Position numbers and translations under genes: made by a program
Part shown: positions 39,461 through 59,055 of the stretch, in pieces
How the letters are laid out: every line of letters starts with the position of its first letter
Numbering within the stretch: the first letter of the stretch is position 1
The notes under the pieces: model-generated
Database searches by the model: none
What the model was told of the DNA's origin: nothing
Seen by the model: the letters and a program-made list of their open reading frames with translations, nothing else
DNA from: Anaerovorax odorimutans DSM 5092
GTDB taxonomy: Bacteria; Bacillota; Clostridia; Peptostreptococcales; Anaerovoracaceae
Length of the DNA: 64,000 nt
Assembly: GCF_000426305.1 (NCBI RefSeq)
Contig: NZ_AUFC01000002.1
Span: 62,001 to 126,000, forward strand
Direction of reading: 5' to 3'

Positions 39461-39464
39461 TCAA

Positions 39465-43249: not shown

Positions 43250-43675
43250 ATGCTCTGGAAAGACAAATACGAGCTGGGAGTTTTATTAATAGACACACAA
43301 CATAAAGAATTGTTTAAGCGTGTTGAAGCATTTCTTCAAACACTACGCTCCTCGGCTTCTTGGGATGAAAAAGTACAAAAAGTCAATGAAACCCTTGAAT
43401 TTATGAAAAGTTATGTTGTAGAACACTTTCATGATGAAGAGGTATACCAAAAAAGTATCGGTTATCCGAATTATGAAGAACATAAAAAGATACATAAGGA
43501 AATGGTTGACTATGTATTACAAGTTTCAGATGAATATGAACGCAGTGGTTTTAATGAACAATTGATGCAGCAGTTTGCTGGTAAATTACTTGCATGGCTT
43601 ATTAACCATGTTGCTTCAGAAGATCAGCGCATAGCTTCCTATGCCATAGAAAAGGGGGTGGCTGGAGATGAGTAA
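43250..43675 (+). CDS. Bacteriohemerythrin
   Basis: This 141-residue four-helix protein binds O2 with a di-iron site. All seven ligands are in place: His18, His59, Glu63, His78, His82, His120 and Asp125. Such proteins deliver or scavenge oxygen in anaerobes. AAAGGACG precedes the ATG. It overlaps the CheX-like gene by 8 bases, showing translational coupling. Confidence 0.93.
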   Translation: MLWKDKYELGVLLIDTQHKELFKRVEAFLQTLRSSASWDEKVQKVNETLEFMKSYVVEHFHDEEVYQKSIGYPNYEEHKKIHKEMVDYVLQVSDEYERSGFNEQLMQQFAGKLLAWLINHVASEDQRIASYAIEKGVAGDE

Positions 43676-44120
43676 TGAAGGTTTTTATGGTTCCTTTTTA
43701 GAAGCTACTCGTAATGTATTTCAATTAATGCTTGATCTTTCAGATATATCTGACTGTCCGGCAGAATCTTTTTCTTGTGATGAAGAGCTAGACATTTCTA
43801 TAGGTGTAATAGGAGATCTTAAAGGAGAAGTAATTTATAGATTTCCTCATGAGACATCGCTGCATATGGTAAATATTATGAGTGGAATGGAAGTTGATTC
43901 TGTTGATGAGTTTGTAACTTCAGCCATTTCAGAAATTGCAAATATTATAAGTGGAAATGTTCTTACTATTCTTGCCGAAAAGGATTATAAATGCGATATA
44001 TTACCTCCTGTAAAGTATGAAGCTGATGACAGCAAAGAATATGCTATGCGTGAAGCTTATTGTATCTCCACATCTGTGGGAAATGTTTGTTTGGATGTAA
44101 GATTAAATAATGTTTCATAG
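43668..44120 (+). CDS. CheX-like chemotaxis phosphatase-domain protein
   Basis: This 150-residue protein has the CheC/CheX signature ExxN..GN in SAISEIANIISGNVLTIL (about residues 85-102), and a repeating alpha/beta fold of the CheX type. CheX dephosphorylates CheY. It starts inside the hemerythrin gene (8-bp overlap, ATG 43668), so the two are made together. An oxygen-responsive chemotaxis role is a reasonable inference but not proven. Confidence 0.85.
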   Translation: MSNEGFYGSFLEATRNVFQLMLDLSDISDCPAESFSCDEELDISIGVIGDLKGEVIYRFPHETSLHMVNIMSGMEVDSVDEFVTSAISEIANIISGNVLTILAEKDYKCDILPPVKYEADDSKEYAMREAYCISTSVGNVCLDVRLNNVS

Positions 44121-44415: not shown

Positions 44416-46383
44416 ATGAATTGCAGCCAAATGGAAATAAAAAAAGAATATATTGTTAATTCACATAGAAGATGTAGTGAATATGAAGTTGAAAAAGAAC
44501 GGATATACAGTAAAAAAATAATTTCTGGTGATGAGCTGTCAAAGAAATTAGAATTAAAAAAGGAACTAATTGATATAGCAGGTCTATATATGAACCGTTT
44601 ATATGATTTTGTAAAAGGATCTAATTTTTTTTGTTTACTAACTGATGAAGAAGGCTGTATTTTAAGTATCATAGGTGATACGGATATATTATTAGAGGCT
44701 TTTTCCTTTAAGATGGTACCTGGTGCTTATATGGATGAACGTAACATTGGAACTAATTCCATGGGAACAGCTTTAGCTGAAGGAAAGCCTGTACAAGTGT
44801 CAGGAGAAGAACATTACATTAAAGCGTATCATCGATGGACATGTTCAGCATCCCCAATAAGAAATTCCAAAGGAGAGATTATCGGAACAATAGATTTAAC
44901 TGGTTACAGTGAATTTGTTAATTTGCATACCCTTGGTATGATTGTAGCAGCTGCTAATGCAATAGAAGAAATGATTGATATTAAAAGGTATAATGAAGAG
45001 TTATCTATGGCTAAAAAGTTTACAGAGACAATTATAGATTCTATTGAATCTGGTATATTGACCTCTGATTTTGAGGGTAATATAAAAACAGTAAATCGTT
45101 ATGTTTCAGATATGTTTGGTTATAAACAAAATGAAATAAAATTAATGAAAGCTTGGGATTTAATTGAAGATTGGGAGAATATAAAAACATCAGTTATAAA
45201 AAAGCAAAGTTTTACAGATGAAGAAGTGTTTGTAAATTCAAAGGGTAAAAAACTTCAATTTAATTTAAGTGTTTATCCCCACCTTGATGATAAACAAAAC
45301 TTAAGGAATATCGTTTTTGTTTTTAAGGAAGTTAAAAAGGTGAGAAAATTGGCTAATAAAATTATGGGGCACCAAGCTTTTTATACTTTTGATAAAATTA
45401 TTGGTCAAAATAAGAATTTTGTACAAATTCTTGAATATGCCAAAAAGATTGCGGATAGTAGATCAAATGTTCTTATTATGGGTGAGAGTGGTACAGGTAA
45501 AGAACTCTATGCACAGGCAATACACAATTACAGCAGTAGGAAAGATGAACCTTTTGTAGCATTAAATTGTGGTGCTATACCAAGGGAACTTATAGAGTCC
45601 GAGCTATTTGGATATGAAGGAGGAGCTTTTACAGGGGCAAAAAGTGCAGGTCAGCCCGGGAAATTTGAAATTGCAGACGGTGGAACGATTTTTTTAGATG
45701 AAATAGGTGAAATGCCTTTAGATATGCAGACTAGATTGCTTAGAGTTATTGAAGAAGGTACAGTGAATAAAGTTGGCAGTATCAAAGAGATTGTTGTAGA
45801 TGTAAGAGTTATTGCGGCTACAAATAAGGACTTGAATGAAGAAGTAGGAAAAGGTAATTTCCGTAAGGATCTATACTATAGGCTTAATGTACTTCCCATA
45901 AGATTGATGCCATTAAGAGAAAGAAAAGATGATATACCACTTTTAAGTCAATATTTTATGAAAAGAATTTCTAAAAAACTTAATAAAAATATGGTAAATA
46001 TCAATGAAGAAACTATGAAATCCCTTATAGAATATGAATGGCCTGGAAATGTAAGAGAATTGGAAAACATAATAGAACTTATGGTAAACACGGAATCTAT
46101 CCCAGATAGATTTATTAAATTAGATAATAATCCTTTTGAAGAAGTTGAATATAACATAAGTATGAAAAATTTAGGGCAAGAATTAGCATATGAATCAATT
46201 GATGAAAATCTCAAATTGGTAGATATTGAAAAAAGACATATACTCAAGGTATTGAATTATTATAGCGGTAATATTACTTTATGTGCTAAAGCATTGGGAA
46301 TTGGAAGAAATACTCTTTATAGAAAAATGGATAATTTTGAAATTAAAAGTTATAATTCTAATAAAGAGGAATCTTTTAATTAA
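44416..46383 (+). CDS. Sigma-54-dependent transcriptional activator (GAF-PAS-AAA+-Fis)
   Basis: This 655-residue enhancer-binding protein is of AcoR/NifA style. A GAF-like domain (about 55-180, ERNIGTNSMGTAL), a PAS domain (about 205-310), an AAA+ domain (about 330-560) with Walker A GESGTGKE, the sigma-54-contacting GAFTGA loop (about 404), Walker B TIFLDEIGEM and the arginine-finger segment, and a C-terminal Fis HTH (LCAKALGIGRNTLYRKM). It activates promoters of the -24/-12 class. Two such promoters, at 46453 and 49034, lie immediately downstream and are the obvious targets. The GAF/PAS region presumably senses a metabolite. Confidence 0.95.
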   Translation: MNCSQMEIKKEYIVNSHRRCSEYEVEKERIYSKKIISGDELSKKLELKKELIDIAGLYMNRLYDFVKGSNFFCLLTDEEGCILSIIGDTDILLEAFSFKMVPGAYMDERNIGTNSMGTALAEGKPVQVSGEEHYIKAYHRWTCSASPIRNSKGEIIGTIDLTGYSEFVNLHTLGMIVAAANAIEEMIDIKRYNEELSMAKKFTETIIDSIESGILTSDFEGNIKTVNRYVSDMFGYKQNEIKLMKAWDLIEDWENIKTSVIKKQSFTDEEVFVNSKGKKLQFNLSVYPHLDDKQNLRNIVFVFKEVKKVRKLANKIMGHQAFYTFDKIIGQNKNFVQILEYAKKIADSRSNVLIMGESGTGKELYAQAIHNYSSRKDEPFVALNCGAIPRELIESELFGYEGGAFTGAKSAGQPGKFEIADGGTIFLDEIGEMPLDMQTRLLRVIEEGTVNKVGSIKEIVVDVRVIAATNKDLNEEVGKGNFRKDLYYRLNVLPIRLMPLRERKDDIPLLSQYFMKRISKKLNKNMVNINEETMKSLIEYEWPGNVRELENIIELMVNTESIPDRFIKLDNNPFEEVEYNISMKNLGQELAYESIDENLKLVDIEKRHILKVLNYYSGNITLCAKALGIGRNTLYRKMDNFEIKSYNSNKEESFN

Positions 46384-46452
46384 TATAGATAATATGTTTT
46401 TTAGGTAACGTTTTAAATATAAAAATTATATTCAAAGTTTTAAAAGGCTCGC

Positions 46453-46469
46453 TGGCATAAATTTTGCTA
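46453..46469 (+). promoter_or_regulatory. Sigma-54 promoter 1 (-24/-12)
   Basis: TGGCATAAATTTTGCTA has GG at 46454-46455 and GC 12 bases later at 46466-46467, as the consensus TGGCACG-N4-TTGC requires. It lies about 70 bases before the gene at 46536. Confidence 0.88.
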
Positions 46470-46535
46470 TTGTATATTAATGAATTAATATTTTTATGAA
46501 TTTACTAAAGATAAGGAGTTGATTTTAAGAAGATT

Positions 46536-46823
46536 ATGGATAAGGAAATGAAAACAGACTTTTTAAAAAATAATAAAATAAACTTAGTTATTTCAAAAGA
46601 AGTTTCGGAAATAATGGAAGAAAGATTTATTCTGCTTGAAGATATAGAGAAAGTAGTAACAAATTCAATTCTAATGGGAGAGAGGTTTTTTAATTCCGAA
46701 GATTCAAGCTATCTGGCAAATTTACGCGTAAAAAATGTAACTTACTGGGTACAATATGTGGAAAATGAGGACGGGATTCATATAATAAACGTGTACAGCC
46801 ATAGGATGGAAATAGTGAGGTAG
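46536..46823 (+). CDS. Stand-alone copy of the C-terminal domain of the dicluster oxidoreductase
   Basis: This 95-residue protein closely matches the last 80 residues of the oxidoreductase at 53673: both contain the ERFFNS..DSSYLANLR block, a KNVTYWV strand and the ending VYSHRMEI, at roughly two thirds identity by eye. The domain has no cysteines, so it is a structural or docking module rather than an Fe-S carrier. It is the first gene behind sigma-54 promoter 1 and is followed by the Cys-rich redox protein after 4 bases. The site before ATG 46536 is weak and ATG 46548 is an alternative start. Confidence 0.8.
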   Translation: MDKEMKTDFLKNNKINLVISKEVSEIMEERFILLEDIEKVVTNSILMGERFFNSEDSSYLANLRVKNVTYWVQYVENEDGIHIINVYSHRMEIVR

Positions 46824-46827
46824 TAAA

Positions 46828-47034
46828 ATGAAAGAAGAAAGCGGACAAGAAGAAAAATGGATATGCGATAAATGTAAGGAAAAATTAGAGCTTCACAAAG
46901 TAAAAGTATCTTACTTGGGAGGAAATTTTGAAGTAGAGTTGCTTAAGTGTCCAAAGTGTAATAATGTATTTATTAGTGAAGATTTAGCATTGGGAAAGAT
47001 GTTGGAGGTAGAAAAAGGACTGGAGGATAAATAA
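46828..47034 (+). CDS. Small Cys-rich redox protein (DVU_1557-like)
   Basis: This 68-residue protein carries two CxxC pairs (CDKC and CPKC), the arrangement of a zinc ribbon or rubredoxin-like site. From memory it resembles the DVU_1557 family, which accompanies Mop-type aldehyde oxidoreductase loci in Desulfovibrio. It is in the operon behind sigma-54 promoter 1 between the stand-alone domain and a methyltransferase. The family name is my recollection and should be checked. Confidence 0.65.
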   Translation: MKEESGQEEKWICDKCKEKLELHKVKVSYLGGNFEVELLKCPKCNNVFISEDLALGKMLEVEKGLEDK

Positions 47035-47035
47035 C

Positions 47036-47755
47036 ATGAAATGCTTTAATGCATATGAAAATGAGGATATGACTAAAATAACAGGTGAAACTCTTAGACC
47101 CGGAGGTTTTAAATTAACAGAAAAAGGCATACAGTTTTGTAAAATCTCATCAAAGGATTATGTCCTTGATCTTGGATGTGGTCAGGGAGCTACTGTAAAC
47201 TATCTTTTTAAAAAACATAATATAAATGCAATAGGTATTGATCCTTCGGTTAAATTAATAAAAATTGCAAAAGAAAAATATGGACATAAGCAATTTTTTA
47301 TAGGAGATGGTAATAACATTCCGTTTCAAAATAATAGCTTTAATTGTGTATTTGCAGAATGTACATTATCTTTAATGGATAATTTGGAGTGTACTTTAAA
47401 ACAAGTATATAGAGTTTTAAAAGATGAAGGTTGGTTTATTATTACAGATGTTTACGCCCAGAATCCTAATGAAGTAAATTTACTATCACAATTTTCTTTT
47501 AACAGTTGTATAAGAAATCTCCATAACCTAGAGAAATTACAAGAAAAGCTGAAAATACTAGGTTTTGACATTATTTTTTCTGAAGACTATAGTATTTTTT
47601 TAAAAGAGCTGTTTGTTAAAATAGGATTTACTTATGGAACTATGGGTATGTTTTGGAATACAACTACTCAAGGATGTATTGATGGTTATGAATTTCAAAA
47701 AGCCTTAAAACCTTGTAAACCGGGATATTTTATGATGGTTGCCAGAAAAAATTAG
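47036..47755 (+). CDS. SAM-dependent methyltransferase of the Mop locus (DVU_1556-like)
   Basis: This 239-residue class I methyltransferase has motif I VLDLGCGQGATVNYLF (about residue 43) and a typical acidic post-motif (AIGIDPSVK). TGGAGG lies ten bases before the ATG and the preceding stop is two bases away, so translation is coupled. In Mop-type loci a methyltransferase of this kind recurs next to the Cys-rich protein; a role in cofactor or substrate modification is likely but unproven. Confidence 0.78.
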   Translation: MKCFNAYENEDMTKITGETLRPGGFKLTEKGIQFCKISSKDYVLDLGCGQGATVNYLFKKHNINAIGIDPSVKLIKIAKEKYGHKQFFIGDGNNIPFQNNSFNCVFAECTLSLMDNLECTLKQVYRVLKDEGWFIITDVYAQNPNEVNLLSQFSFNSCIRNLHNLEKLQEKLKILGFDIIFSEDYSIFLKELFVKIGFTYGTMGMFWNTTTQGCIDGYEFQKALKPCKPGYFMMVARKN

Positions 47756-47802
47756 ATTCATAGAATAGTTATTGATATTACTAAAATGGGAGTAACAAAA
47801 GA

Positions 47803-48894
47803 ATGAGTAATACTGTTTACAATAGCTTAAAATTAGAATTGAATAAAGGGAAAAAAGCAGTAGTAGTTACATTTATAGATGACACAAATAGCATGAGAAA
47901 ATTATTACATAATAAAATTATTATCACAGAAGAGCAGGTACTTGATTCTAAGTCTATATATGATCTTGATGAGATGACTTTTAATAAAGTACAATTTGCT
48001 TTTAATACAGGGAATTTACAATTTTTACGTAGTTCAAATGGTGAAAATATTTTAATTGAACCATATTTCCCTCAGCCACGCCTTATAGTATTAGGAGGCG
48101 GAAATATTGCTAAGCCCTTAGTTGAATTCGGTTATAAGGTGGGTCTGTCAGTAACAATAGTTGATGATAGACCTAAGTTCGCTAATAAGGAAAGATTTCC
48201 AAACGCTGAAAATGTAATTTGTGAGAGTTTTAATAATTGCTTTACTCAATTAAACCTTAATGATTATTCATTCATAGTAATAGTAACTAGGGAACATTGT
48301 AATGATTTAGATTGTTTAAAACATTTATTGAAATATAATACTGCATATATAGGAATGATTGGATCAAATTATAGTGTAAATAGTATAAAAAAACAACTTT
48401 TAGATGAAGGTTATTCAGAAGAATTAATAAATAAGATTAATGCTCCTGTAGGTCTTAAAATAGGAGCTATTACACCTGAAGAGATTGCAATATCCATAAT
48501 TGCGCAGATTATACGTCATAGAAGACTTGAAATGAAATTGTCAGATAATAATGCAGATTCTATATTGATAAATTGGCCTGAAATTGACAATAGTGTATTA
48601 GAAGAATTATGTAAAAATTCTCAGGATTTAAAGGCTTTAATTACAATAATTTCTACAAAAGGTTCAGTCCCCAGAAAAGCAGGAACTAAAATGCTTGTTT
48701 GGTCATATGGAATGACTATGGGGAGTATTGGAGGCGGATACGCTGAAGGAGAAATAATTAATGCTGCTTGGCAAATTATAGGAAGCGGCAGTACAAAAAT
48801 TCATGATATTGATATGACAGGTCATATTGCTGAAGAAGAAGGTATGATATGTGGTGGTATTATGAAAGTATTGATAGAAGACTATAAAGGGTAA
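47803..48894 (+). CDS. XdhC-family molybdenum-hydroxylase maturation protein
   Basis: This 363-residue protein handles molybdenum cofactor for xanthine dehydrogenase/aldehyde oxidase-type enzymes. The Rossmann XdhC domain is readable as RLIVLGGGNIAKPLVEFGYK (about residue 93), and a CoxI/XdhC module follows at about 275-355 (GSVPRKAGTKMLVW, GSIGGGYAEGEI, GMICGGIMKVLIE). The order (Rossmann first, CoxI last) is reversed from the commonest layout. It is the last gene of the first sigma-54 operon and matches the Mop genes of the second. Inserting sulfurated molybdenum cofactor into Mop is the expected role. Confidence 0.88.
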   Translation: MSNTVYNSLKLELNKGKKAVVVTFIDDTNSMRKLLHNKIIITEEQVLDSKSIYDLDEMTFNKVQFAFNTGNLQFLRSSNGENILIEPYFPQPRLIVLGGGNIAKPLVEFGYKVGLSVTIVDDRPKFANKERFPNAENVICESFNNCFTQLNLNDYSFIVIVTREHCNDLDCLKHLLKYNTAYIGMIGSNYSVNSIKKQLLDEGYSEELINKINAPVGLKIGAITPEEIAISIIAQIIRHRRLEMKLSDNNADSILINWPEIDNSVLEELCKNSQDLKALITIISTKGSVPRKAGTKMLVWSYGMTMGSIGGGYAEGEIINAAWQIIGSGSTKIHDIDMTGHIAEEEGMICGGIMKVLIEDYKG

Positions 48895-48903
48895 ATAATT
48901 ATA

Positions 48904-48973
48904 TGTTCTAAAATAGAACAGTGATCCAAAACGTAACAGATAATTCTGACAATTAGTGTTCGATAATAGAACA
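48904..48973 (+). promoter_or_regulatory. Two 17-bp palindromes, probable enhancer sites for the sigma-54 activator
   Basis: TGTTCTA-AAA-TAGAACA (48904-48920) and TGTTCGA-TAA-TAGAACA (48957-48973) are 53 bases apart, an integral number of helical turns. The nearest lies about 60 bases before the -24 box at 49034. Position and symmetry fit binding by the Fis-type activator encoded at 44416. Confidence 0.8.
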
Positions 48974-49033
48974 GTTTATGATTAATTTTTAATTAAGGTT
49001 AAGAATCCTTTGCATTTGCAAAGGTTTTTTTAT

Positions 49034-49050
49034 TGGCATGAATTATGCTT
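49034..49050 (+). promoter_or_regulatory. Sigma-54 promoter 2 (-24/-12)
   Basis: TGGCATGAATTATGCTT has GG at 49035-49036 and GC at 49047-49048, correct spacing; the -12 box is ATGC rather than TTGC. It shares TGGCAT-AATT with promoter 1 and precedes the Mop operon. Confidence 0.82.
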
Positions 49051-49151
49051 AATTTATAATTGTTAATTAAATTTCAGTATAGATGGAATTTGGCAAAGGG
49101 TGTAAATTTTAGAGGCAATTCCAAATCATAATTTTTAAATGGAGGAATGTT

Positions 49152-50339
49152 ATGCTTAAGAAAACTTTATTTATCAACGGAGTTGAAAAGCGTGTTGTAG
49201 TTGATCCTGAAACCACTTTGGCAAGTGTTCTGAGAAACCAAATGTTTTTAACAGGTACTAAAGTTGGATGTGGTAAGGGGGAATGTGGAGCTTGTACAGT
49301 AATTCTTGATGGCAATATAGTGAAATCTTGCATAGTTAAAATGAAGGATGTAGAAGATGATTCTCAAATTATTACAATCGAAGGTATAGGAACAAGTAAA
49401 AAACTTCATCCGTTACAGCTTTCATGGATAATTAATGAAACGGCACAATGCGGATTTTGTACTTCGGGTTTTATTGTATCAGCTAAAGCTCTTTTGGATC
49501 AAAATATCAATCCAACAAGAGATGAAGTAAGAGACTGGTTTAAGGAAAACAACAATGTGTGTAGATGTACAGGCTATGAGCCTGCAGTAAATGCTGTTAT
49601 GGATGCCGCAAAACTTATTAGAGGAGAAGTATCTAAAGAAGAACTTTGGCTGAAATTAAAAGAAGGAACAAGTATATTTGATTTAAGTCTGCTTGATTCT
49701 GCTGATATTGCCAAGGTAACGGGAACTTATAAATATGATGCAGATCTTGGATTAAATCTTCCTCAAGGAACCTTGCATATAAAATTAGTGCAAGCACAGG
49801 TACCTAAAGGAAATATAGTATCAATTGATACATCTGAAGCTGAGAAGATGCCGGGAGTATACAAGGTAATAACTTATAAGGATATACCTGGTACAAACAG
49901 GATTATATTAAAAAAAGGCGAGGAAAAAGAAGTTCCAATAATAAATGATAAAAAGATCTTTAAAGAAGGTGACCCTATAGCTATGGTACTTGCTTTTAAA
50001 CCAAAACTTGCAGAAGAAGCTGCAAAATGTGTAAAAGTAAAAATAGAGGAATTATCAGAGTATAGTGAACCTAAGGCAAAGGATGAGGAATTGCTTCCTT
50101 TTGAACCTAATGTTGGATTTGCATATCTAAATGAAAGAGGCAAATTGATTATTCAAACTAGGAATAAAGATTTGCACCTAAGTTCGCTGGCAGAGGGTAT
50201 AGGAGTACCCCTTGAGAAATTGGCAATAGTGCAAAATAATAGAGAAAGCAGCATAGGATATGAATTTAGTCCTATAAAGGAAGGTTTACTTGGTATTGCA
50301 GCACTGGTAACCAAAAAACCGGTTTACCTTGAGCTTTGA
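49152..50339 (+). CDS. Truncated Mop paralogue: two [2Fe-2S] domains plus partial Mo domain
   Basis: This 395-residue protein corresponds to the first 450 or so residues of the full-length Mop at 50887. Both iron-sulfur domains are intact: the plant-ferredoxin type (GCGKGECGAC) and the C-terminal four-helix type (CGFC...CRC). After that it has a deletion of about 40 residues and stops at VTKKPVYLEL where the full-length protein continues. The molybdopterin loop GGTFGYKF is altered to ESSIGYEF and the catalytic Glu region is absent, so it cannot hydroxylate substrate. The frame is undamaged, has a GGAGG site and is first in the sigma-54 operon, so it may be a working electron-transfer subunit. 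Confidence 0.85.
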   Translation: MLKKTLFINGVEKRVVVDPETTLASVLRNQMFLTGTKVGCGKGECGACTVILDGNIVKSCIVKMKDVEDDSQIITIEGIGTSKKLHPLQLSWIINETAQCGFCTSGFIVSAKALLDQNINPTRDEVRDWFKENNNVCRCTGYEPAVNAVMDAAKLIRGEVSKEELWLKLKEGTSIFDLSLLDSADIAKVTGTYKYDADLGLNLPQGTLHIKLVQAQVPKGNIVSIDTSEAEKMPGVYKVITYKDIPGTNRIILKKGEEKEVPIINDKKIFKEGDPIAMVLAFKPKLAEEAAKCVKVKIEELSEYSEPKAKDEELLPFEPNVGFAYLNERGKLIIQTRNKDLHLSSLAEGIGVPLEKLAIVQNNRESSIGYEFSPIKEGLLGIAALVTKKPVYLEL

Positions 50340-50421
50340 TATGTTATCGGTACAATATAAAAGTTAATAAGTATTTAAAGGAGGTGCAACTGGTATCGCT
50401 GGTGCGGTGACCAAGAATATT

Positions 50422-50865
50422 ATGAAAAAAATTTTAATGATTTCGCCTAAGAAATGCATTAATTGTGGAACATGTGAGTCAGTTTGTACAAATTCTGCAG
50501 TAAATGTATTCAGCTTTGAAGAAGCGGTAATTTCAGTACCTATAATGTGCATGCAATGTGAAGATGCAGCTTGCATGATGGTATGTCCTACAGGTGCTTT
50601 ATCTAGAGATGAAAACGATGCAGTTGTAGTAGATCCAAATAAATGTATTGGATGTAAAATGTGTATTAGTGCTTGCCCTATGGGAAATATTAACTATTCA
50701 ATTAATCTAAAGAAAGTAATGAAATGTAACCTATGCGAGGGCAATCCCGATTGTGTAAAATACTGTCCAACTAGGGCAATTGAATATGTAGATGCAACTT
50801 CATCTAACATAGAAAAGAAAAAAATAGTTGCATCAAAATTTAAAGGATTGTTTGAAGATGAGTAA
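50422..50865 (+). CDS. Four-cluster ferredoxin-like iron-sulfur protein (HycB/CooF type)
   Basis: This protein has 16 cysteines arranged for four [4Fe-4S] clusters: [35 protein letters not shown] and [14 protein letters not shown]. It is probably an electron carrier between Mop and the flavin subunits. The start is uncertain: ATG 50422 has only a weak site; a GTG at 50407 is 22 bases after a strong GGAGG at 50380. Codons 50383-50421 read [13 protein letters not shown], resembling a piece of Mop (GLLGIAALVTKKP), so the upstream region may be a Mop scrap captured by this gene. Confidence 0.88.
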
Positions 50866-50886
50866 TTAGAAAAAGGAGACAATCAG

Positions 50887-53604
50887 ATGATAAAGAAAAC
50901 CTTATTTATTAATGGTGTTGAAAAACATCTAGTAGTGGATCCTGAAGAATCCCTCATAAATGTATTAAGAAATCAACTTTTACTCACAGGAACTAAGTCT
51001 GGCTGCGGCGGTAAAGGGGAATGTGGTGCATGTACTGTTATATGGGACGGCAAGGCTGTAAGAGCTTGTGTTTATAAAATGGAAAGAATACCTGATGATG
51101 CTCATATTATTACAATTGAAGGCGTAGGAACGAAGGAATGTTTACATCCTTTACAGCTTTCATGGATGATTCACGGAGCAGCACAATGCGGTTTTTGTAC
51201 GCCGGGATTTATTGTATCAGCTAAGGCACTTTTAGATCAAAACATCAATCCAACAAGAGAAGAAGTAAGAGAATGGTTTTATAAAAATAGAAATTTATGC
51301 AGATGTACAGGGTATAAACCTCAAGTAGATGCAGTTATGGATGCTGCCAGAATGTTAAGAGGCGAAGTAACTAAGGAGGAATTATGGCCGCAATTAAAAG
51401 AGGGAGCTAGCTTAATGGGATCAAGTATGCCTCGCCCTTCAGCAGTAGCAAAGGTTACAGGTACTTGGGACTTTGGTGCTGATTTGAGGCAAAAGCTTCC
51501 GGAAGATACTTTGCATATAAAATTAGTGCAAGCGAAGGTATCACATGCAAATATATTATCAATTGATACCTCTGAGGCAGAAAGTATTCCAGGAGTTTAT
51601 AAAGTTATAACTTATAAAGACGTTCCCGGAACAAACAGGATTAATGGTTTAGCATTCCCGTCTAATAAAGGCAGTGGGAAAGAAAGACCTATTTTAAATG
51701 ATAAAAAAATATTTCAGTTTGGTGATGCTATAGCTATGGTACTTGCTTATACTCCAGCCATAGCAGAAGAAGCGGCTGAAAAAGTAAAAGTGGAAATAGA
51801 AGAATTACCTGCATACATGAGTGCTCTTACTGCTATGGATGAAGATGCGATTGAAATTCATCCTGGCACACCAAATGTTTATTTTGAGAATCATGCTGTA
51901 AAAGGTGAGGAGGTTGAGCCTCTGTTTGAAGAATTACCTTATGTAGTTGAAGATGATTTTTATGTTGGAAGACAGCCTCATCTTCCTCTTGAACCTGATG
52001 TGGGATTTGCATATCTTGATGAAGAAGGGAAACTAATAATTCATTCTAAGAGTATAGGTATACATGTTCATGCATTAATGGTTGCAGAAGGTATAGGTAT
52101 GCCTCTTGAAAAACTTGTGATTGTTCAAAATAATACAGGAGGAACATTTGGATATAAATTCAGTCCAACAATGGAAGGTCTGCTTGGCGTAGCAGCTTTA
52201 GTGACAAAAAAGCCTGTATATCTTGAATTCAATATGTATCAGCAAATAACTTATACAGGAAAGAGATCTCCATTCTTTATAAACCTGAAAATGGGAGCAG
52301 ATAAAGACGGTAAAATTATTGCTATGGAATCAGATTGGACTGTAGATCATGGTCCTTACTGTGAATTTGGTGATTTACTGACTATGAGAGCTCCACAATT
52401 TATTGGTGCAGGATACTCTATTCCAAATATTAGAGGTAATGGCAGAACAGTTGCTACTAATCATGCTTGGGGATCAGCTTTCAGAGGATATGGCTCTCCA
52501 CAATCTCTGTTTTCATCTGAAGTTCTTGTAGATGAACTTGCTGAAAAAGTGGGCATGGATCCTCTTGAATTCAGATATTTGAATGTATACAGAAAAGGAG
52601 ATACTACGCCTACAGGTTGTGAACCTGATGTTATTGCCTATCCTCAGGCTCTTGATAAATTAAGACCGATTTATCAGCAAGCAAAGGAAAATGCAAAAAT
52701 TAAAAATTCCAAAGGAGGAGAAATCAAATACGGAGTTGGAATATCATTGATGGAATATGGTTGTGGTCTTGATGGTGCAGATTCTTCTGAAGCTTTTGCT
52801 GAAATAACCGAAAACGGTGTTACAATTGGTAATGCCTGGGAAGATCATGGTCAGGGGGCAGATATGGGAACATTGACAATTGCCCATGAAGCGTTAAAAC
52901 CTCTTAATATCAAACCTGAGCAGATAAGACTTATTATGAATGATACGGAAAAGACTCCTAACAGTGGACCGGCAGGCGGCAGCCGTTCAAATGTTATGAC
53001 GGGAAATGCTACTCGAGTTGCCTGTGAAAACCTTATAGAAGCTCTGAAAAAGGATGATGGGTCTTATAGAACTTATGAAGAAATGGTTGCAGAAAATTTA
53101 CCTACAAAATATATGGGAAAATGGACAGCACCTTGTACTGAATGTAGTGTTGAAACAGGTCAGGGTAATCCATTCCCAGTTTATATGTATGGTGTTTTAC
53201 TTGCTGAAGTGGCGGTTGATACAACAAATGGCAATGTAAAAGTTGATAAATATACACTGGTCTCAGATTGTGGTCCGGTAATGAATAAGTTGGTTTTGGA
53301 AGGTCAATTATATGGCGGTCTTGTTCAAGGTATAGGTCTTGCATTATCAGAGGACTTTGAAGATTTAAATAAGCATACTACACTTTTAAGATGTGGGATT
53401 CCTCGTATTAAAGATGTGCCAGATACTATTGATATTATTCATCAGGAGACTAAAAGACCAAATGGACCATTTGGTATGGCAGGTTCGGGAGAAATGCCTC
53501 TTTCATCACCTCATGCAGCAATAATAAATGCAATATATAATGCTTGCGGAGTACGTATAACTAAACTTCCTGCATATCCTGAAAAAATAATGGCTGCTTT
53601 ATAA
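50887..53604 (+). CDS. mop: Mop-type molybdenum aldehyde oxidoreductase (xanthine oxidase family)
   Basis: This 905-residue enzyme oxidises aldehydes (or a related substrate) with a molybdopterin cofactor, and matches D. gigas Mop in length and motifs. Two [2Fe-2S] domains come first, then the Mo domains: GGTFGYKFSPTMEGLLG (about 418), RGYGSPQSLF, GQGADMGTLTIAHEALKP, GGSRSNVMTGNA and the catalytic-Glu motif GSGEMPLSSPHAAIINAI near the C-terminus. No FAD domain is present, so electrons leave via Fe-S partners. The first cluster reads CGGKGECGAC, C-x5-C instead of the usual C-x4-C. AAAAGGAGA precedes the ATG. Confidence 0.93.
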   Translation: MIKKTLFINGVEKHLVVDPEESLINVLRNQLLLTGTKSGCGGKGECGACTVIWDGKAVRACVYKMERIPDDAHIITIEGVGTKECLHPLQLSWMIHGAAQCGFCTPGFIVSAKALLDQNINPTREEVREWFYKNRNLCRCTGYKPQVDAVMDAARMLRGEVTKEELWPQLKEGASLMGSSMPRPSAVAKVTGTWDFGADLRQKLPEDTLHIKLVQAKVSHANILSIDTSEAESIPGVYKVITYKDVPGTNRINGLAFPSNKGSGKERPILNDKKIFQFGDAIAMVLAYTPAIAEEAAEKVKVEIEELPAYMSALTAMDEDAIEIHPGTPNVYFENHAVKGEEVEPLFEELPYVVEDDFYVGRQPHLPLEPDVGFAYLDEEGKLIIHSKSIGIHVHALMVAEGIGMPLEKLVIVQNNTGGTFGYKFSPTMEGLLGVAALVTKKPVYLEFNMYQQITYTGKRSPFFINLKMGADKDGKIIAMESDWTVDHGPYCEFGDLLTMRAPQFIGAGYSIPNIRGNGRTVATNHAWGSAFRGYGSPQSLFSSEVLVDELAEKVGMDPLEFRYLNVYRKGDTTPTGCEPDVIAYPQALDKLRPIYQQAKENAKIKNSKGGEIKYGVGISLMEYGCGLDGADSSEAFAEITENGVTIGNAWEDHGQGADMGTLTIAHEALKPLNIKPEQIRLIMNDTEKTPNSGPAGGSRSNVMTGNATRVACENLIEALKKDDGSYRTYEEMVAENLPTKYMGKWTAPCTECSVETGQGNPFPVYMYGVLLAEVAVDTTNGNVKVDKYTLVSDCGPVMNKLVLEGQLYGGLVQGIGLALSEDFEDLNKHTTLLRCGIPRIKDVPDTIDIIHQETKRPNGPFGMAGSGEMPLSSPHAAIINAIYNACGVRITKLPAYPEKIMAAL

Positions 53605-53672
53605 ATTGAAAATGGTATAGATTTTATGTGGGCAAAACGGGACAGTCTGTATTTGCCCACAGGGAGGTATAT

Positions 53673-55949
53673 ATGGATAAGAACCTTTTTGAAGAATGTG
53701 AAAAATGCATACAAGATGAACCTGCAGCATCTACAGCTTGGTGTCCTGTTCATGTTGATGTGGCATTGCTTAACAGCGAAATAGAAAAGGGCGATTTCAG
53801 GAAAGCATATAGAGTTCTGGAGAAGAAAATTCCTTTTGCTGCAATTATTTGCAGCATATGTGATCATCCATGTGAAAAAGTTTGTGTCAGAAATAAAGTA
53901 GATCAAGCAATAAATATATCTGAATTAGAAAGAGCAGTTGTTCATTATGGTTATAAACCATTTAAAAAAGGTGTTTTACTACCTAAAAAAAATGGAACAG
54001 CAGTTGTTATCGGAGGAGGCATAAGCGGGATTATCACAGCTTTTGAACTTGATAAAAAAGGTTTTCAAGTAACCATATATGAACAATCAGAAAGATTGGG
54101 TGGCAGAATTTGGGATTATAAAGGAATACTGCTTGATGAAGATATAATAAATGAAGAATTACAAATTATTAATAAGCTTGGTATAAAAGTCAATTATAAT
54201 AAAAAAATTACAGAAGATGGATTAGAAGAGCTTATTAAAGAATATGATGCGGTATATCTTGGAACTGGAGAATGGAAAAGAGAGCTGAATATAAACCCCG
54301 AAACCTTTCAGGTTTTAAACCTGCCTATATTTGCAGGAGGCAGACTTTATAACAAAAATGATTCTGTAATATATTCAGTGAGTTCAGGCAAAAGAGCTGC
54401 TGTTTCAATGGAAAGATATATAAAAAAAATATCTTTAACAGCTTCACGTGATAGAGAAGGTTCTTATGAAACTCCCCTTAAATATAATTTAGATGACGTT
54501 AAACCCAATACTAGAATTGAAAAAACTGATAAAATTTACACTGAAGAAGAGGCAATAAAAGAAGCAGGAAGATGTCTTAAATGTCGATGTATTGAATGTT
54601 TTAAAGCATGTAGTCACATGCAAAAATTTAATATTACACCTAAAAGTTATGCAAGACAAATTCAAATTAATGAAAATGTAATTATGGGAACGCGTTATGC
54701 AAATAAGATGATTAATTCGTGTACAATGTGCGGATTATGTAAAGAGCAGTGTTTTCTTGATATTGGAATGAAGGATTTAATTCATCAAACTAGAGAAAAC
54801 ATGGTTGAAAAGAATAAAATGCCTCCATCTGCGCATGATTTTGCACTCTCAGATATGGAATTCAGTAACAGTAAGAGATTTTTTATGGTGAAATCACCTC
54901 CTCCAATAAAAGGTACAAACAAGATAGATTATATTTTTTATCCGGGTTGTCAGCTAGCAGCATCATATCCAGAATATGTGGAAAAATCCTATAAATATTT
55001 GATCTCTCAAATTGAAGGTGTTGGTATTATGCTTGGATGCTGTGGTGCTCCTGCAGATTGGGCAGGCAGAAAAGATCTTATGAATGAAAGTATTGAAAGA
55101 TTTAAAAATATATGGCTTGAGAATGGAAAACCTGTTTTTATCTTTGCTTGTTCCAGCTGCATAGGTATTTTTGAAAAATATCTGCCTGAAATATCTTATA
55201 TCTCTTTGTGGCAAATATTTGAAAAATATGGCTTACCTAAAAAAGTAAATTCAGAATATAATCATGTTTTAAATATACATGATGCTTGCAGTACAAGATA
55301 CAATAAAGAAGTTCAGGAAAGCATAAGAAATATTGTTTTGAATCTGGGATATGAAATAGATGAACTGAAATATAGTAAAGCTAAAACCAAATGCTGCGGT
55401 TATGGAGGTTTAGTCTATTATGCAAATAAAGAACAAGCAAAAGAATTCGCAGAAGACAGAATAAACGAAAGCAAAGAAGATTTACTAGTATATTGTTCAA
55501 TGTGCAAGGATATTTTTGTTGATAAGGGAAAGAGGACATTTCATATATTGGATTTGATTTTTGGAGAGGACATGGAAAAGCTTTCTCTTAAGAAAATGCC
55601 GAACCTTTCTGAGAGACATTCAAATAGGGCAAGTTTAAAAAATAAGCTTCTTAGAGAATTATGGGAAGAAGAACCTGAAACAGATTTACAAAAAAATGAT
55701 ATGGATCTAGTAATTTCAAAAGAAATATGGAATACCATGGAGGACAGGTTTATTCTATTTGAGGATATAGAAAAGGTTATAAGACATTCCCAGATATCTA
55801 AAGAACGCTTCTTTAACAGCTTAGATTCAAGTTACCTAGCTAATTTACGTATTAAAAATGTAACTTACTGGGTTAGATATAAAGAGAAAGAGGACGGTAT
55901 TTATATAGTAAGTGTTTACAGCCATAGAATGGAAATAGCAAAGGAGTAA
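53673..55949 (+). CDS. Flavin-, dicluster- and CCG-domain oxidoreductase
   Basis: This 758-residue protein has four parts: an N-terminal 4Fe-4S dicluster domain (about residues 8-95, with CSICDHPCEKVC), an FAD-binding Rossmann domain (AVVIGGGISGIITAFELDKK at about 110) related to glutamate synthase small subunit, a second 4Fe-4S dicluster (CLKCRCIECFKAC; CTMCGLCKEQC), and two HdrD-like CCG domains (CCGAPADWAG; CCGYGG). The last 80 residues are the module duplicated at 46536. ATG 53673 follows GGGAGGT. Such multi-cofactor proteins suit electron bifurcation. It shares the operon with Mop, with NuoEF-like genes next. Confidence 0.9.
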   Translation: MDKNLFEECEKCIQDEPAASTAWCPVHVDVALLNSEIEKGDFRKAYRVLEKKIPFAAIICSICDHPCEKVCVRNKVDQAINISELERAVVHYGYKPFKKGVLLPKKNGTAVVIGGGISGIITAFELDKKGFQVTIYEQSERLGGRIWDYKGILLDEDIINEELQIINKLGIKVNYNKKITEDGLEELIKEYDAVYLGTGEWKRELNINPETFQVLNLPIFAGGRLYNKNDSVIYSVSSGKRAAVSMERYIKKISLTASRDREGSYETPLKYNLDDVKPNTRIEKTDKIYTEEEAIKEAGRCLKCRCIECFKACSHMQKFNITPKSYARQIQINENVIMGTRYANKMINSCTMCGLCKEQCFLDIGMKDLIHQTRENMVEKNKMPPSAHDFALSDMEFSNSKRFFMVKSPPPIKGTNKIDYIFYPGCQLAASYPEYVEKSYKYLISQIEGVGIMLGCCGAPADWAGRKDLMNESIERFKNIWLENGKPVFIFACSSCIGIFEKYLPEISYISLWQIFEKYGLPKKVNSEYNHVLNIHDACSTRYNKEVQESIRNIVLNLGYEIDELKYSKAKTKCCGYGGLVYYANKEQAKEFAEDRINESKEDLLVYCSMCKDIFVDKGKRTFHILDLIFGEDMEKLSLKKMPNLSERHSNRASLKNKLLRELWEEEPETDLQKNDMDLVISKEIWNTMEDRFILFEDIEKVIRHSQISKERFFNSLDSSYLANLRIKNVTYWVRYKEKEDGIYIVSVYSHRMEIAKE

Positions 55950-55952
55950 AAC

Positions 55953-56042
55953 ATGCAGAACGAAAGTAGACATTGTGAGCTTTTTCTCGTAGATCGCGAG
56001 ATTAAGATTTTTGTGAATAGGGGCGGTAAATATGGAGAATGA
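55953..56042 (+). CDS. Short 29-residue frame overlapping the NuoE-like start
   Basis: An ATG at 55953 with AAGGAG seven bases upstream begins a 29-codon frame (MQNESRHCELFLVDREIKIF) that ends inside the NuoE-like start region at 56042 (11-base overlap). In operon 1 the same position after the shared module holds the DVU_1557-like gene, which also begins Met-x-x-Glu-Ser. It may be a decayed copy of that gene kept as a translational leader. Confidence 0.4.
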   Translation: MQNESRHCELFLVDREIKIFVNRGGKYGE

Positions 56043-56505
56043 GAAAAGGATTGAAGAAATAATATATGGATATCCTGCTGAAAAAAGATTTTCTTTAGCT
56101 ATTATGCAGGATATACAAAGGGAATTTAATTATATTCCAAGGAATGCAATGGAAACCATTTCAGAATATCTGTTGATACCACTTAGCAAGCTTTATGGCA
56201 TGGCAACTTTTTATAAAGCGTTAAGTTTAAATCCAAAAGGTAAATATATTATTAAAGTATGTGATGGTACAGCCTGTCATATTAGATCATCTATGGTAAT
56301 TGTTTCAGAATTAGAAAAAATATTAGGAATAAAAGTTGGAGAAATTACTCCGGATGGATTGTTTTCTATTGAAACTGTTAATTGTGTGGGAGCATGTGCT
56401 CTTGCACCCGTTATGGTTATAAATGGTGAATATCATGGAAAATTGACACCTCAAGATATCGCCGGCATTATTAACATGTATAAGGAAGGTGAAGTCAATG
56501 AGTGA
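56032..56505 (+). CDS. NuoE-like [2Fe-2S] subunit
   Basis: This 157-residue thioredoxin-like subunit has the four Cys of a NuoE-type [2Fe-2S] cluster: CDGTAC and CVGAC. It normally docks with a NuoF-like flavoprotein, which follows with an 8-base overlap. In anaerobes the trio supplies NAD(H) electrons to hydrogenases, formate dehydrogenases or aldehyde enzymes. Confidence 0.92.
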   Translation: MENEKRIEEIIYGYPAEKRFSLAIMQDIQREFNYIPRNAMETISEYLLIPLSKLYGMATFYKALSLNPKGKYIIKVCDGTACHIRSSMVIVSELEKILGIKVGEITPDGLFSIETVNCVGACALAPVMVINGEYHGKLTPQDIAGIINMYKEGEVNE

Positions 56506-58291
56506 CAGAAAAGTGATGGTTTGCTGCGGAACAGGCTGTCTTGCTAATGGCAGTAAAAAGGTACTTGAAGCTTTTAAGGATGAAATAGAAAAACAGAAGC
56601 TGAATATTGAAGTTGTTCCTTATGTTAAATCAACGGGTTGTAACGGGCTTTGCGAAAGAGGACCCATTGTTAAAATTGAGCCTGACGATATTGCTTATTA
56701 TCATGTTAAAACAGAGGATGTAAAAGAAATTGTATCTAAAACTATTGCAAAGGGAGAGGAAATTCAAAGGTTATTATATTTAGATAGTAAAACAAAAAAA
56801 AGAATACGTTCACATAAGGATTCAGATTTCATTAAAAAACAGACTAAAATTGCCCTTAGGAATATTGGTGAAATAGATCCTTGCGATATTAATGACTATT
56901 TGAACGCAGATGGATATAAAGCATTAAAAAAAGCTCTTTTTGAAATGTCAAATGAAGATATAATTAATGAAATTAAAGCTTCTGGACTTAGAGGCAGAGG
57001 CGGCGGTGGATTCCCTACTGGGGTAAAATGGGAAAGCTGCTATAAAATTGACAGACCCCCTAAATATATTATTTGCAATGGTGATGAGGGTGACCCTGGT
57101 GCTTTTATGGATAGAAGCATTATGGAAGGTGATCCGCATACAGTATTAGAAGGAATGATTATAGCATCTATCGCACTTAATTCTCAAAATGGATACATTT
57201 ATATTCGTGATGAATATGGTTTAGCATTAGAAAATATGCATAGAGCCATAAATCAAGCTAAGGATTTAAATTTTTTAGGAGATAATATTTTAGGAAGCAA
57301 TCACAGTTTCGACATAGAAATTGTAAGAGGAGGAGGTGCTTTTGTATGTGGAGAATCTTCGGCATTAATGGCATCGATAGAGGGAAAAGCCGGAGAACCT
57401 AGGGCTAAATATATAAGGTCAGCTGAATTTGGACTTTGGGGACAGCCAACAGTTTTAAATAATGTTGAAACTTGGGCTAATGTACCTGTTATTATTCAAA
57501 AGGGGAGTGAATGGTTTTCAAAAATTGGAAGTCCTAAAAATTCCGGAACAAAAGTATTTTCTCTTGTTGGAAAAGTTAAAAATACAGGTCTGGTTGAAGT
57601 TCCTATGGGTATTACATTACAAGAACTTATTTTTGACATTGGTGGAGGTATCGTAGGAGATAAAGAGTTTAAAGCTGTTCAGACAGGAGGACCTTCAGGA
57701 GGTTGTATACCTAAAGAATTAATGAATTTAGGTGTTGATTTTGATACGTTGAGTGATGCCGGATCAATGATGGGCTCTGGAGGAATAATTGTTACAGATG
57801 AGAGAACTTGTATGGTTGAATTTGCAAGGTATTATGTTGCATTTCTTGCTGAGGAGTCATGCGGAAAATGTGTATCTTGCAGAGAAGGAATACGGCAAAT
57901 GCTTAAGATACTTACCGATATTTGTGAAGGTAAAGGAAAAGAAAGTGATCTTGATCTTTTAACTGAAATAGCTCATATGGTTGAGCAGGCTTCTCTGTGC
58001 GGACTTGGTAAGACAGCACCAAATCCTGTAATGAGTACATTAAAATATTTTAGGGATGAATATTTGGAACACATTATAGATAAAAGATGCAGAGCAGGAG
58101 TTTGTAAGGCATTGACAGAATTTTATATTGATAAAGATAAGTGCATTGGCTGTGGTCTATGTAAACGAGGATGCGCTCCTGAAGCAATTGAAGGAAATGC
58201 AAAAATGCCTCATATTATTGATCAGGATAAATGTATAAAATGCGGTAACTGCATAGATCTGTGCAAGTTTAAAGCTGTGAAAGTGAGGTGA
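56498..58291 (+). CDS. NuoF-like NADH-binding flavoprotein (HndC/HydB type)
   Basis: This 597-residue protein carries an N-terminal thioredoxin-like [2Fe-2S] domain (CCGTGCLANGSK), then a NuoF core with the FMN/NADH motifs GRGGGGFPTGVKWE and CNGDEGDPGAFMDR, the N3 cluster motif ESCGKCVSCREG and a C-terminal double [4Fe-4S] ferredoxin (CIGCGLCKRGC; CIKCGNCIDLC). This is the HydB/HndC layout of electron-bifurcating systems. ATG 56498 overlaps the preceding gene by 8 bases, with AAGGTGA as its site. Confidence 0.93.
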   Translation: MSDRKVMVCCGTGCLANGSKKVLEAFKDEIEKQKLNIEVVPYVKSTGCNGLCERGPIVKIEPDDIAYYHVKTEDVKEIVSKTIAKGEEIQRLLYLDSKTKKRIRSHKDSDFIKKQTKIALRNIGEIDPCDINDYLNADGYKALKKALFEMSNEDIINEIKASGLRGRGGGGFPTGVKWESCYKIDRPPKYIICNGDEGDPGAFMDRSIMEGDPHTVLEGMIIASIALNSQNGYIYIRDEYGLALENMHRAINQAKDLNFLGDNILGSNHSFDIEIVRGGGAFVCGESSALMASIEGKAGEPRAKYIRSAEFGLWGQPTVLNNVETWANVPVIIQKGSEWFSKIGSPKNSGTKVFSLVGKVKNTGLVEVPMGITLQELIFDIGGGIVGDKEFKAVQTGGPSGGCIPKELMNLGVDFDTLSDAGSMMGSGGIIVTDERTCMVEFARYYVAFLAEESCGKCVSCREGIRQMLKILTDICEGKGKESDLDLLTEIAHMVEQASLCGLGKTAPNPVMSTLKYFRDEYLEHIIDKRCRAGVCKALTEFYIDKDKCIGCGLCKRGCAPEAIEGNAKMPHIIDQDKCIKCGNCIDLCKFKAVKVR

Positions 58292-58296
58292 GGTCA

Positions 58297-59055
58297 TTGG
58301 ATAATGTAAAAGTAATTATTAACGGAAAAGAGTGCATTGCAGAAAAAGGCGAATTGTTAATGGATATAGCGAGCCGCAATGGAATTTATATTCCACATTT
58401 ATGTCACCATGAATCACTTAGAGGGCAGGCTACTTGCAGAATTTGCATTGTAGAAGTTATGGAAAATGGAAAAAAGAAGATAGTTACGTCTTGTATTTTC
58501 CCTGTAGTGAGAGACATTGTTGTAGAAACTAATACTGAAGATATAATAAATATGAGAAAAACTTTATTCAGCCTTCTTATGGCAGAAGTTCCCGGTAATG
58601 AGACAATTAGATCAATGGCTGAAGAATATGGGATAAGAGAAAATTTACGTTTTTATAAGAGTAGGGGAAATGAGTGTATTTTATGCGGTTTATGCGTTAA
58701 AGCATGTGAAGAATTAGGATGTAATGCCATCGCCACTGTAAGTAGAGGTACTACAAAAAAAGTGTCAACACCGTATGAAGAACCATCAATAGAGTGTATT
58801 GGCTGCGGGTCATGTGCTTCTGTATGTCCGACAGGATGCATTAAAATAGAAGAAGGTTATGGCAAACGTAAAATTTGGAATAGAGAATTTGAAATGATTA
58901 AATGTAGCGTTTGCGGTAAGTATTTTATAACAAAAGAAGAATATGATTATATAAACGAAAAATGTGAAGTGCTAGAAGCTCCTGTTTGTAAAAGCTGTAA
59001 ACAAAATGAGGTTGCAAAAAAAGTATTAGAATCATTAATGATAGAAGAAAAATAA
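58297..59055 (+). CDS. NuoG-N/HndD-N-like iron-sulfur subunit without hydrogenase domain
   Basis: This 252-residue protein has a [2Fe-2S] ferredoxin domain (HLCHHESLRGQATCRIC), a His-Cys-type segment and two [4Fe-4S] motifs (CILCGLCVKAC; CIGCGSCASVC), then a C-terminal Cys-rich zinc-like tail (CSVCGKY...CKSCK). It equals the N-terminal half of HydA/HndD without the catalytic H-cluster domain, so the electrons are meant for another enzyme, presumably Mop. The start TTG 58297 follows GAGGTGAGG; GTG 58288, overlapping the previous stop, is an alternative. Confidence 0.88.
   Translation: MDNVKVIINGKECIAEKGELLMDIASRNGIYIPHLCHHESLRGQATCRICIVEVMENGKKKIVTSCIFPVVRDIVVETNTEDIINMRKTLFSLLMAEVPGNETIRSMAEEYGIRENLRFYKSRGNECILCGLCVKACEELGCNAIATVSRGTTKKVSTPYEEPSIECIGCGSCASVCPTGCIKIEEGYGKRKIWNREFEMIKCSVCGKYFITKEEYDYINEKCEVLEAPVCKSCKQNEVAKKVLESLMIEEK

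Follow-up and report, generated by a model that had tools for sequence, protein, structure and literature searches.

The Bfu family of electron-bifurcating enzymes is described as sharing a ligand-bearing BfuBC core and a BfuA homolog, to which extra subunits for a third substrate are added (PMC9304861). In the Class IV bifurcating tungsten aldehyde oxidoreductases (WORs; WorLS-WorABC or Wor-Bfu), WorS is encoded ahead of BfuC-BfuB-BfuA; the Wor-Bfu of A. mobile is reported to require both acceptors simultaneously (PMC9304861), and AmWOR1 is described as three WorSL on one bifurcating WorABC (PMC13328260). In the Bam benzoyl-CoA reductase complex, homologs of BfuABC are accompanied by additional Fe-S and Hdr-type components (PMC9304861), and the catalytic subunit is a homolog of WorL (PMC13328260). 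Molybdenum aldehyde oxidoreductases (Mop) are known from Desulfovibrio (PDB 1sij and 1dgj), and canonical DVU_1551–1560-like Mop loci also encode a flavin adenine dinucleotide (FAD)-type dicluster protein with CCG motifs (the dicluster/CCG protein), XdhC, and a methyltransferase; D. gigas Mop has been discussed with flavodoxin as a putative partner (PMC10223205). Here we describe a locus of Anaerovorax odorimutans DSM 5092 that shares WorS and BfuABC homologs with the Class IV WORs and a full-length Mop, the dicluster/CCG protein, XdhC, and the methyltransferase with the Mop loci. It occupies positions 44416–59055 of a 64,000-nucleotide stretch, hereafter the window (assembly GCF_000426305.1, contig NZ_AUFC01000002.1, positions 62,001–126,000 of the forward strand), and comprises a sigma-54 activator and two operons.

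The second, seven-gene operon probably encodes a soluble bifurcating aldehyde oxidoreductase with a Mo-hydroxylase, Mop, as its catalytic subunit. We base this proposal on the first matches of four of its proteins, all to subunits of PDB 9mqx, on a gene order kept in two genomes of a second genus (G279 and G306), and on the lack of a WorL match in four genomes of that genus. Further support comes from the clade formed by the Mop-linked BfuB proteins, the low ratios of nonsynonymous to synonymous substitution (dN/dS) of WorS and of MopN, a truncated Mop paralog, the loss of a loop from WorS, a conserved promoter with palindromes, and the B2 cluster ligands of BfuB. A fuller version, for which we judge the chances even, is that no bifurcating Mo-hydroxylase would precede this one and that a Class IV WOR was refitted with an unrelated Mo catalyst, so that MopN, a dead duplicate, serves as a [2Fe-2S] adapter to WorS-BfuABC.

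Gene content of the locus and its counterparts in PDB 9mqx

All genes listed below are open frames.

44416–46383, +: sigma-54-dependent activator (GAF, PAS, AAA+, Fis-type helix-turn-helix; Pfam), at the equivalent place in G279 (locus L075) and G306 (L095/L137)
46453–46468, +: -24/-12 element of operon 1; counterparts at L075:4836 and L095:1558
46536–46823, +: 95-residue open reading frame (ORF) resembling the DUF4258 region at the C terminus of the dicluster protein (NF045663 positions 673–758, 93 bits)
47036–47755, +: S-adenosylmethionine (SAM)-dependent methyltransferase (PF08241), with relatives in canonical Mop loci
47803–48894, +: XdhC-type Mo-enzyme maturation factor, XdhC_C before CoxI (Pfam; NF045664 280 bits, below the cut-off of 350)
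48904–48973, +: two palindromes, TGTTC-N7-GAACA, at 48904 and 48957, candidate activator sites by their conserved spacing
49007–49024, +: terminator-like stem-loop at the end of operon 1
49034–49049, +: -24/-12 element of operon 2; counterparts at L075:6883 and L095:3644
49152–50339, +: MopN, truncated Mop paralog (Pfam), with matching architecture in G279 and G306
50407–50865, +: WorS-like polyferredoxin, 16 Cys (PDB match 9mqx_E)
50887–53604, +: Mop, molybdenum aldehyde oxidoreductase, full length (NF045668; 1dgj, 1sij)
53628–55949, +: FAD/dicluster protein with two CCG motifs and a C-terminal DUF4258-like part (NF045663 1007 bits, cut-off 530)
56032–56505, +: BfuC, NuoE-like (PDB match 9mqx_C; PF01257 165 bits)
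56489–58291, +: BfuB, NuoF-like, with an N-terminal thioredoxin-like part and a C-terminal 2x[4Fe-4S] part (9mqx_B; tree)
58288–59055, +: BfuA, NuoG-N-like, without a hydrogenase domain (9mqx_A; alignment)

Operon 1 thus holds the DUF4258 ORF, the methyltransferase, and XdhC. Operon 2 runs from MopN to BfuA with intergenic gaps of 67, 21, 23, and 82 bases and two overlaps. The gene inventory and positions given in the initial annotation were correct, as was its count of exactly 16 Cys in the ferredoxin; MopN (49152–50339), the methyltransferase (47036), the DUF4258 ORF (46536), and the likeness of the ferredoxin to WorS went unmentioned there. Its statement that hydrogenase and formate dehydrogenase catalytic genes are missing also agrees with our search, which found neither of these, nor a WOR catalytic gene, among the ORFs of the stretch with the activator and the two operons.

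Searched against all PDB sequences, BfuB had 9mqx_B as its first match (5.9e-238), BfuC had 9mqx_C (4.1e-44), and BfuA had 9mqx_A (3e-53) over residues 5–245, with the Cys residues aligned. The 16-Cys ferredoxin matched 9mqx_E first (3.7e-40) and 8c0z_C, labeled as an aldehyde oxidoreductase subunit, second (6.2e-31), and so resembles WorS, the small subunit of bifurcating WORs. The WorL of a relative, genome G172, matches 9mqx_D, and chains D and E are each present in three copies. We take 9mqx to be the AmWOR1 complex because three D and three E chains fit the architecture of three WorSL per WorABC (PMC13328260). The unit therefore holds counterparts of WorS, WorA, WorB, and WorC but none of WorL, the 9mqx_D counterpart. 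No match to the WorL (AFOR) catalytic subunit was found within the unit, and the sole PF01314 match of the genome lies on another contig; since WorL is missing, the unit is not a Class IV WOR. It further differs from those enzymes in having Mop, MopN, and the dicluster/CCG protein, although an aldehyde substrate is probably shared. The Mop and dicluster genes stand between WorS and BfuC, and WorS nevertheless lies near the WorABC-type genes.

Several features that define the Bfu family are present: the BfuB domains, a NuoE-type BfuC adjoining BfuB, a BfuA with 2Fe-2S and 4Fe-4S domains, and the ligands of the B2 cluster. In BfuB, PF01512, PF10589, and Fer4 scored above their cut-offs, and the SLBB domain PF10531 gave an E-value of 1.7e-5 at 25 bits, below its cut-off of 27; we take these Pfam entries to be equivalent to the InterPro set for BfuB (FMN/51K, SLBB, NADH 4Fe-4S, and 4Fe-4S). 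For Type 2, in which BfuA has no A3 and A5 clusters, the comparison is limited to one motif, H-x3-C-x2-C-x5-C, which the HydA of this genome carries and BfuA lacks, with cluster names only partly mapped. All five B2 ligands occur in BfuB (C441, C479, H528, C534, and C539).

These ligands bear on an alternative in which the complex is real and does not bifurcate, or runs in reverse, with NADH and reduced ferredoxin together driving a reduction at Mop (confurcation). Bfu reactions are described as reversible (PMC9304861), and a later review doubts that bifurcation is proven even for WOR1, since demonstration of an endergonic step in its electron transfer is still lacking (PMC12096430). Nevertheless, the unit keeps the B2 histidine, stated to be absent from homologs that do not bifurcate, and a potential of about -560 mV for aldehyde oxidation favors the oxidative direction (PMC9304861). 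We therefore regard this alternative as unlikely.

Mop and its truncated paralog MopN

Mop scored 1595 bits against NF045668 (cut-off 1100), which places it in the molybdopterin-dependent aldehyde oxidoreductase family, and it is similar from end to end to the Desulfovibrio enzymes 1dgj and 1sij. It carries E869, which we take to be the counterpart of the catalytic glutamate of the D. gigas enzyme, Glu869, and has Cys at position 626, where that enzyme presumably has Leu. Because of the NCBIfam aldehyde model and the full-length similarity to the Desulfovibrio proteins, an aldehyde is favored over an N-heterocycle as the substrate. Of the two substrate classes offered in the initial annotation, the first thus gains support and the second is less favored.

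MopN is a protein of 395 residues that keeps the two [2Fe-2S] domains, with their eight cysteines, and the hammerhead domain. It lacks the segment matching Mop residues ~320–366 and ends opposite Mop residue 448, so that most Mo-binding domains are missing; its score against NF045668 is 521 bits, that of a non-member. The internal gap (to within a few residues) and the terminal KKPVYLEL are common to the copies in the window, G279, and G306. In the tree, the three MopN proteins form one clade (Shimodaira-Hasegawa-like approximate likelihood ratio test, SH-aLRT, 99) within a group of eight rows (100) that otherwise holds the Mops of the same unit and those of loci L114 and L116, with the exact sister of MopN left unsettled. 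One duplication before the split of the two genera is the simplest reading. The predicted structure of MopN (mean predicted local distance difference test score, pLDDT, 82) matched Mop 1sij first, with a template modeling (TM) score by query of 0.66 and a root-mean-square deviation of 8.2, and appears to add little beyond the sequence comparison.

We rejected the possibility that MopN is a pseudogene because the frame, the 8 Cys, the near-identical gap, and the identical end are kept in three genomes from two genera, with a dN/dS of 0.12 between G279 and G306.

Elsewhere in the genome of the window, contig C5 holds two more full Mops (loci L007 and L008). A dicluster/CCG protein accompanies each of them, but neither has WorS or Bfu. 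They sit among genes for the Mo cofactor and for a radical SAM protein of the TrsS type, and C5:74296–74673 encodes a fragment of a Mop.

Recurrence, ancestry, and selection

The order activator-XdhC-MopN-WorS-Mop-dicluster-BfuC-BfuB-BfuA recurs in the second genus, in G279 (L075) and in G306, where the activator is cut in L095 and whole in L137. Genome G307 has the unit in two pieces (L096 and apparently L115), and G309 shows only BfuA, at a contig end. Between the activator and XdhC, the second genus has DVU_1557- and DVU_1555-family genes, assigned in G279 and also known from canonical Mop loci, whereas the window has the DUF4258 ORF and the methyltransferase. None of the 16 window ORFs flanking the unit matched any ORF of L075, L095, or L137, so it is the unit rather than the region that is conserved. 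The neighborhood search suggested in the initial annotation, for Mop together with NuoEF-like and CCG genes, accordingly recovered the combination in a second genus with other flanks.

A search for WorL (PF01314) gave no match in G279 (98% complete, one contig), G306 (89%), G307 (81%), or G309 (66%); the same search returned five in G172 and eight in G525. This result is pertinent to the possibility that WorS-BfuABC serves another catalytic protein, either the genome's WorL or an unrecognized one, or is the relic of a lost Class IV WOR that stands beside Mop by accident. Association of the NuoEF-like subunits with another enzyme had been named in the initial annotation as a case that would undo its proposal. 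One WorL does occur on contig C5 of the window's genome. However, it has its own small WorS and resembles the second WorSL beside the full Class IV operons of G504 and G363, WorL was undetected in the four second-genus genomes (three of them only 66–89% complete), all unit genes have low dN/dS between G279 and G306, and the order of the unit is retained although its flanks differ. We consider such an arrangement distinctly unlikely, less firmly so for the window's own genome, which has that WorL. In G504 and G363 themselves, the Class IV operon adjoins the second-type WorSL (L108:10994–14287 and L110:5365–10413), and the window's genome has the second type only.

Matches to BfuA, with the window's own genome included, were found in 41 of 349 genomes of the family (1e-20), 16 of 391 of the class, and 57 of 398 of the phylum (both 1e-35). 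Neighborhoods were read for 19 of the 40 other family genomes, all 15 other class genomes, and 24 of the 56 other phylum genomes. Among these, the second genus alone (G279, G306, and, in pieces, G307) had a Mop in the vicinity of Bfu; where a contig ends close to the genes, as some do, a missing Mop counts for little. Other genera of the family have the module as a Class IV WOR, with WorS, WorL, BfuC, BfuB, and BfuA all present in eight of the 19 genomes read (G172, G525, G312, G318, G198, G326, G504, and G363) and all except BfuC in G445. Starting from Mop gave a similar picture. WorS or Bfu labels appeared in L075 alone among 19 loci of other genomes, and among 30 further loci the unit was present in L137 and, as its first half before the contig breaks off, in L115, which appear to be the contigs of G306 and G307 counted above; Bfu labels were missing from the remaining 28, several of which end near Mop. 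The canonical Mop loci examined lacked both BfuABC and MopN.

Other arrangements were seen in passing. In G172, a small ORF between WorL and BfuC has a terminal GG that recalls, by eye, proteins of the MoaD type. G279 has a second Bfu unit (L111:6592–13308) with a CooF-like ferredoxin, a carbon monoxide dehydrogenase catalytic subunit (TIGR01702, 766 bits), a CooC-like ATPase (by eye), BfuC, BfuB, and BfuA, which fits the Codh-Bfu predicted in PMC9304861. In three class-level genomes (L183, L184, and L188), BfuCBA adjoins a shorter hydrogenase-like protein (459–474 residues) and WorS-like ferredoxins.

In a BfuB tree of 62 rows, the four Mop-linked sequences form a clade (100/99) that joins the WOR-linked sequences of G172 and G525, Class IV WORs of the same family, at 100/100. 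These fall inside a group of 28 rows (96/95) with other WOR-linked and also hydrogenase- and Nfn-like sequences, and nesting of the Mop-linked BfuBs within the WOR BfuBs is the likeliest reading of this midpoint-rooted tree. The unit's Mops, in turn, fall among Mops of canonical Bfu-less loci. Because BfuB groups with the one and Mop with the other, the operon looks like a chimera.

All three Mop-type WorS, and none of 36 others, have lost a loop of 10 residues that follows the fourth cysteine. In the WorS tree the Mop-type proteins group in one clade, the stem of which is long (0.54). Between G279 and G306, the dN/dS values were 0.017 for WorS, 0.022 for Mop, 0.05 for BfuB, 0.08 for BfuA, 0.12 for both MopN and the dicluster protein, 0.15 for XdhC, and 0.18 for BfuC; this pair alone was used, synonymous change between the window and the second genus being saturated. 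By these values MopN and WorS are under purifying selection. Change along the stem and, after it, strong constraint suggest to us that WorS probably adapted to a new partner.

In the window as in G279 and G306, operon 2 includes the gene for the dicluster/CCG protein, and the window copy has two full CCG motifs. As Bam-Bfu combines HdrA-type parts with BfuABC (PMC9304861), this protein could act as another hub, in the manner of the Hdr-type Bam subunits, with Mop, a further acceptor, and Bfu in one larger complex. We find this highly unlikely: the protein adjoins most Mops that have no Bfu nearby, and it is less constrained than Mop and WorS. Because of its presence beside those Bfu-less Mops, it is probably not the bifurcating part. 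Loci L120 and L133 have a Mop without it. The initial annotation had tied a Mo-hydroxylase to a bifurcating NuoEF-like module and drawn in this Hdr-like protein; the tie itself is supported by the second genus, the BfuB tree, the ligands, and the promoter, whereas the part given to the FAD/CCG protein is unsupported.

Several observations weigh against a bifurcating Mop complex, among them the doubt over WOR1 and the WorL on contig C5 described above. The unit was found in two genera of one family, and only a sample of genomes was read for its absence from others. Conservation between the two genera is lower for XdhC, BfuA, and the dicluster protein (54–67% identity), and Mop-type WorS has no settled position among other WorS in the tree. 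Finally, weakly matching WOR-like genes lie near Mop in three Campylobacterota loci, all among the 28 without a Bfu label (WorL-like at 174 bits and WorS-like at 52 in L127:6726–9387, WorS-like at 55 in L129:2491–3141, and WorL-like at 80 in L141:21932–22715).

Probable joint expression and a proposed route for electrons

A generic scan for -24/-12 elements gave 24 matches at up to two mismatches against 20.6 expected. As this is chance level, the promoter calls rest on conservation: the two elements marked in the initial annotation are present (46453 and 49034) and both have counterparts at equivalent places in G279 and G306. Both window sites are exact to the consensus TGGCATRAWWTWTGCT, and two hits were found in 0 of 100 shuffles, with a consensus derived from these same sites. 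Upstream of the operon 2 element, the palindrome starts are 53 bp apart in the window, L075, and L137; the window has two exact copies, L075 two copies with a single mismatch each, and L137 an exact copy and a copy with one mismatch. Exact matches to TGTTC-N7-GAACA in the window's genome are these two only. The protein most likely to bind them is the linked sigma-54 activator, and the conserved promoter and unique palindromes argue for joint expression of MopN through BfuA.

In the bifurcating complex that we propose, Mop would oxidize an aldehyde to the acid at Mo, and electrons would exit through its [2Fe-2S] clusters, perhaps by way of MopN, into WorS. The four [4Fe-4S] clusters predicted in WorS could pass them to BfuA and on to the BfuBC core, which would reduce NAD+ and ferredoxin together. 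As to origin, a Mop operon may have acquired the WorS-BfuABC part of a Class IV WOR, but not its WorL; Mop would also have undergone duplication, with the loss from one copy, MopN, of most of what lay outside the Fe-S part.

The Bfu module, WorS, and Mop are each known, and what appears new is their pairing without WorL, a variant outside the literature searched. Unlike Bam, whose catalytic subunit belongs with WorL, and the described Bfu enzymes, the unit would have a third-substrate enzyme of the xanthine-oxidase family. In the titles and abstract openings searched, no Mo-hydroxylase with a Bfu module was described; the terms 'xanthine', 'molybd', and 'Mop' do not occur in the main text of PMC9304861, nor 'xanthine' and 'aldehyde' in the passages of PMC6085437 covered. 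A known energy-saving machine thus seems to have had its catalytic part replaced by an unrelated one. If so, the Bfu core and its polyferredoxin adapter would be modular enough to accept a new catalytic fold and a new metal, the W and Mo enzymes swapped here performing the same chemistry by different means. Bifurcation would extend to the xanthine-oxidase family, and anaerobes would have a tungsten-free route from aldehydes to reduced ferredoxin. The same module with a W or a Mo catalyst in one family would also amount to a natural experiment on the demands that the bifurcating core makes of a donor.

Some minor features of the locus and its surroundings were also noted. The DUF4258 ORF (46536–46823) encodes on its own what the dicluster/CCG protein carries as a DUF4258-like part at its C terminus, and the domain order of XdhC (47803–48894; L075:5579–6742) is swapped relative to the canonical NF045664 protein of Mop loci. 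A hemerythrin and CheX pair (43250–44120) lies just 5' of the unit and a GGDEF protein gene (59428–60456) just 3', neither of which is retained beside the unit in the second genus. Farther upstream (37835–43106), a 541-residue protein with weak Hint/intein-like matches adjoins a 1218-residue protein with laminin-G-type domains.

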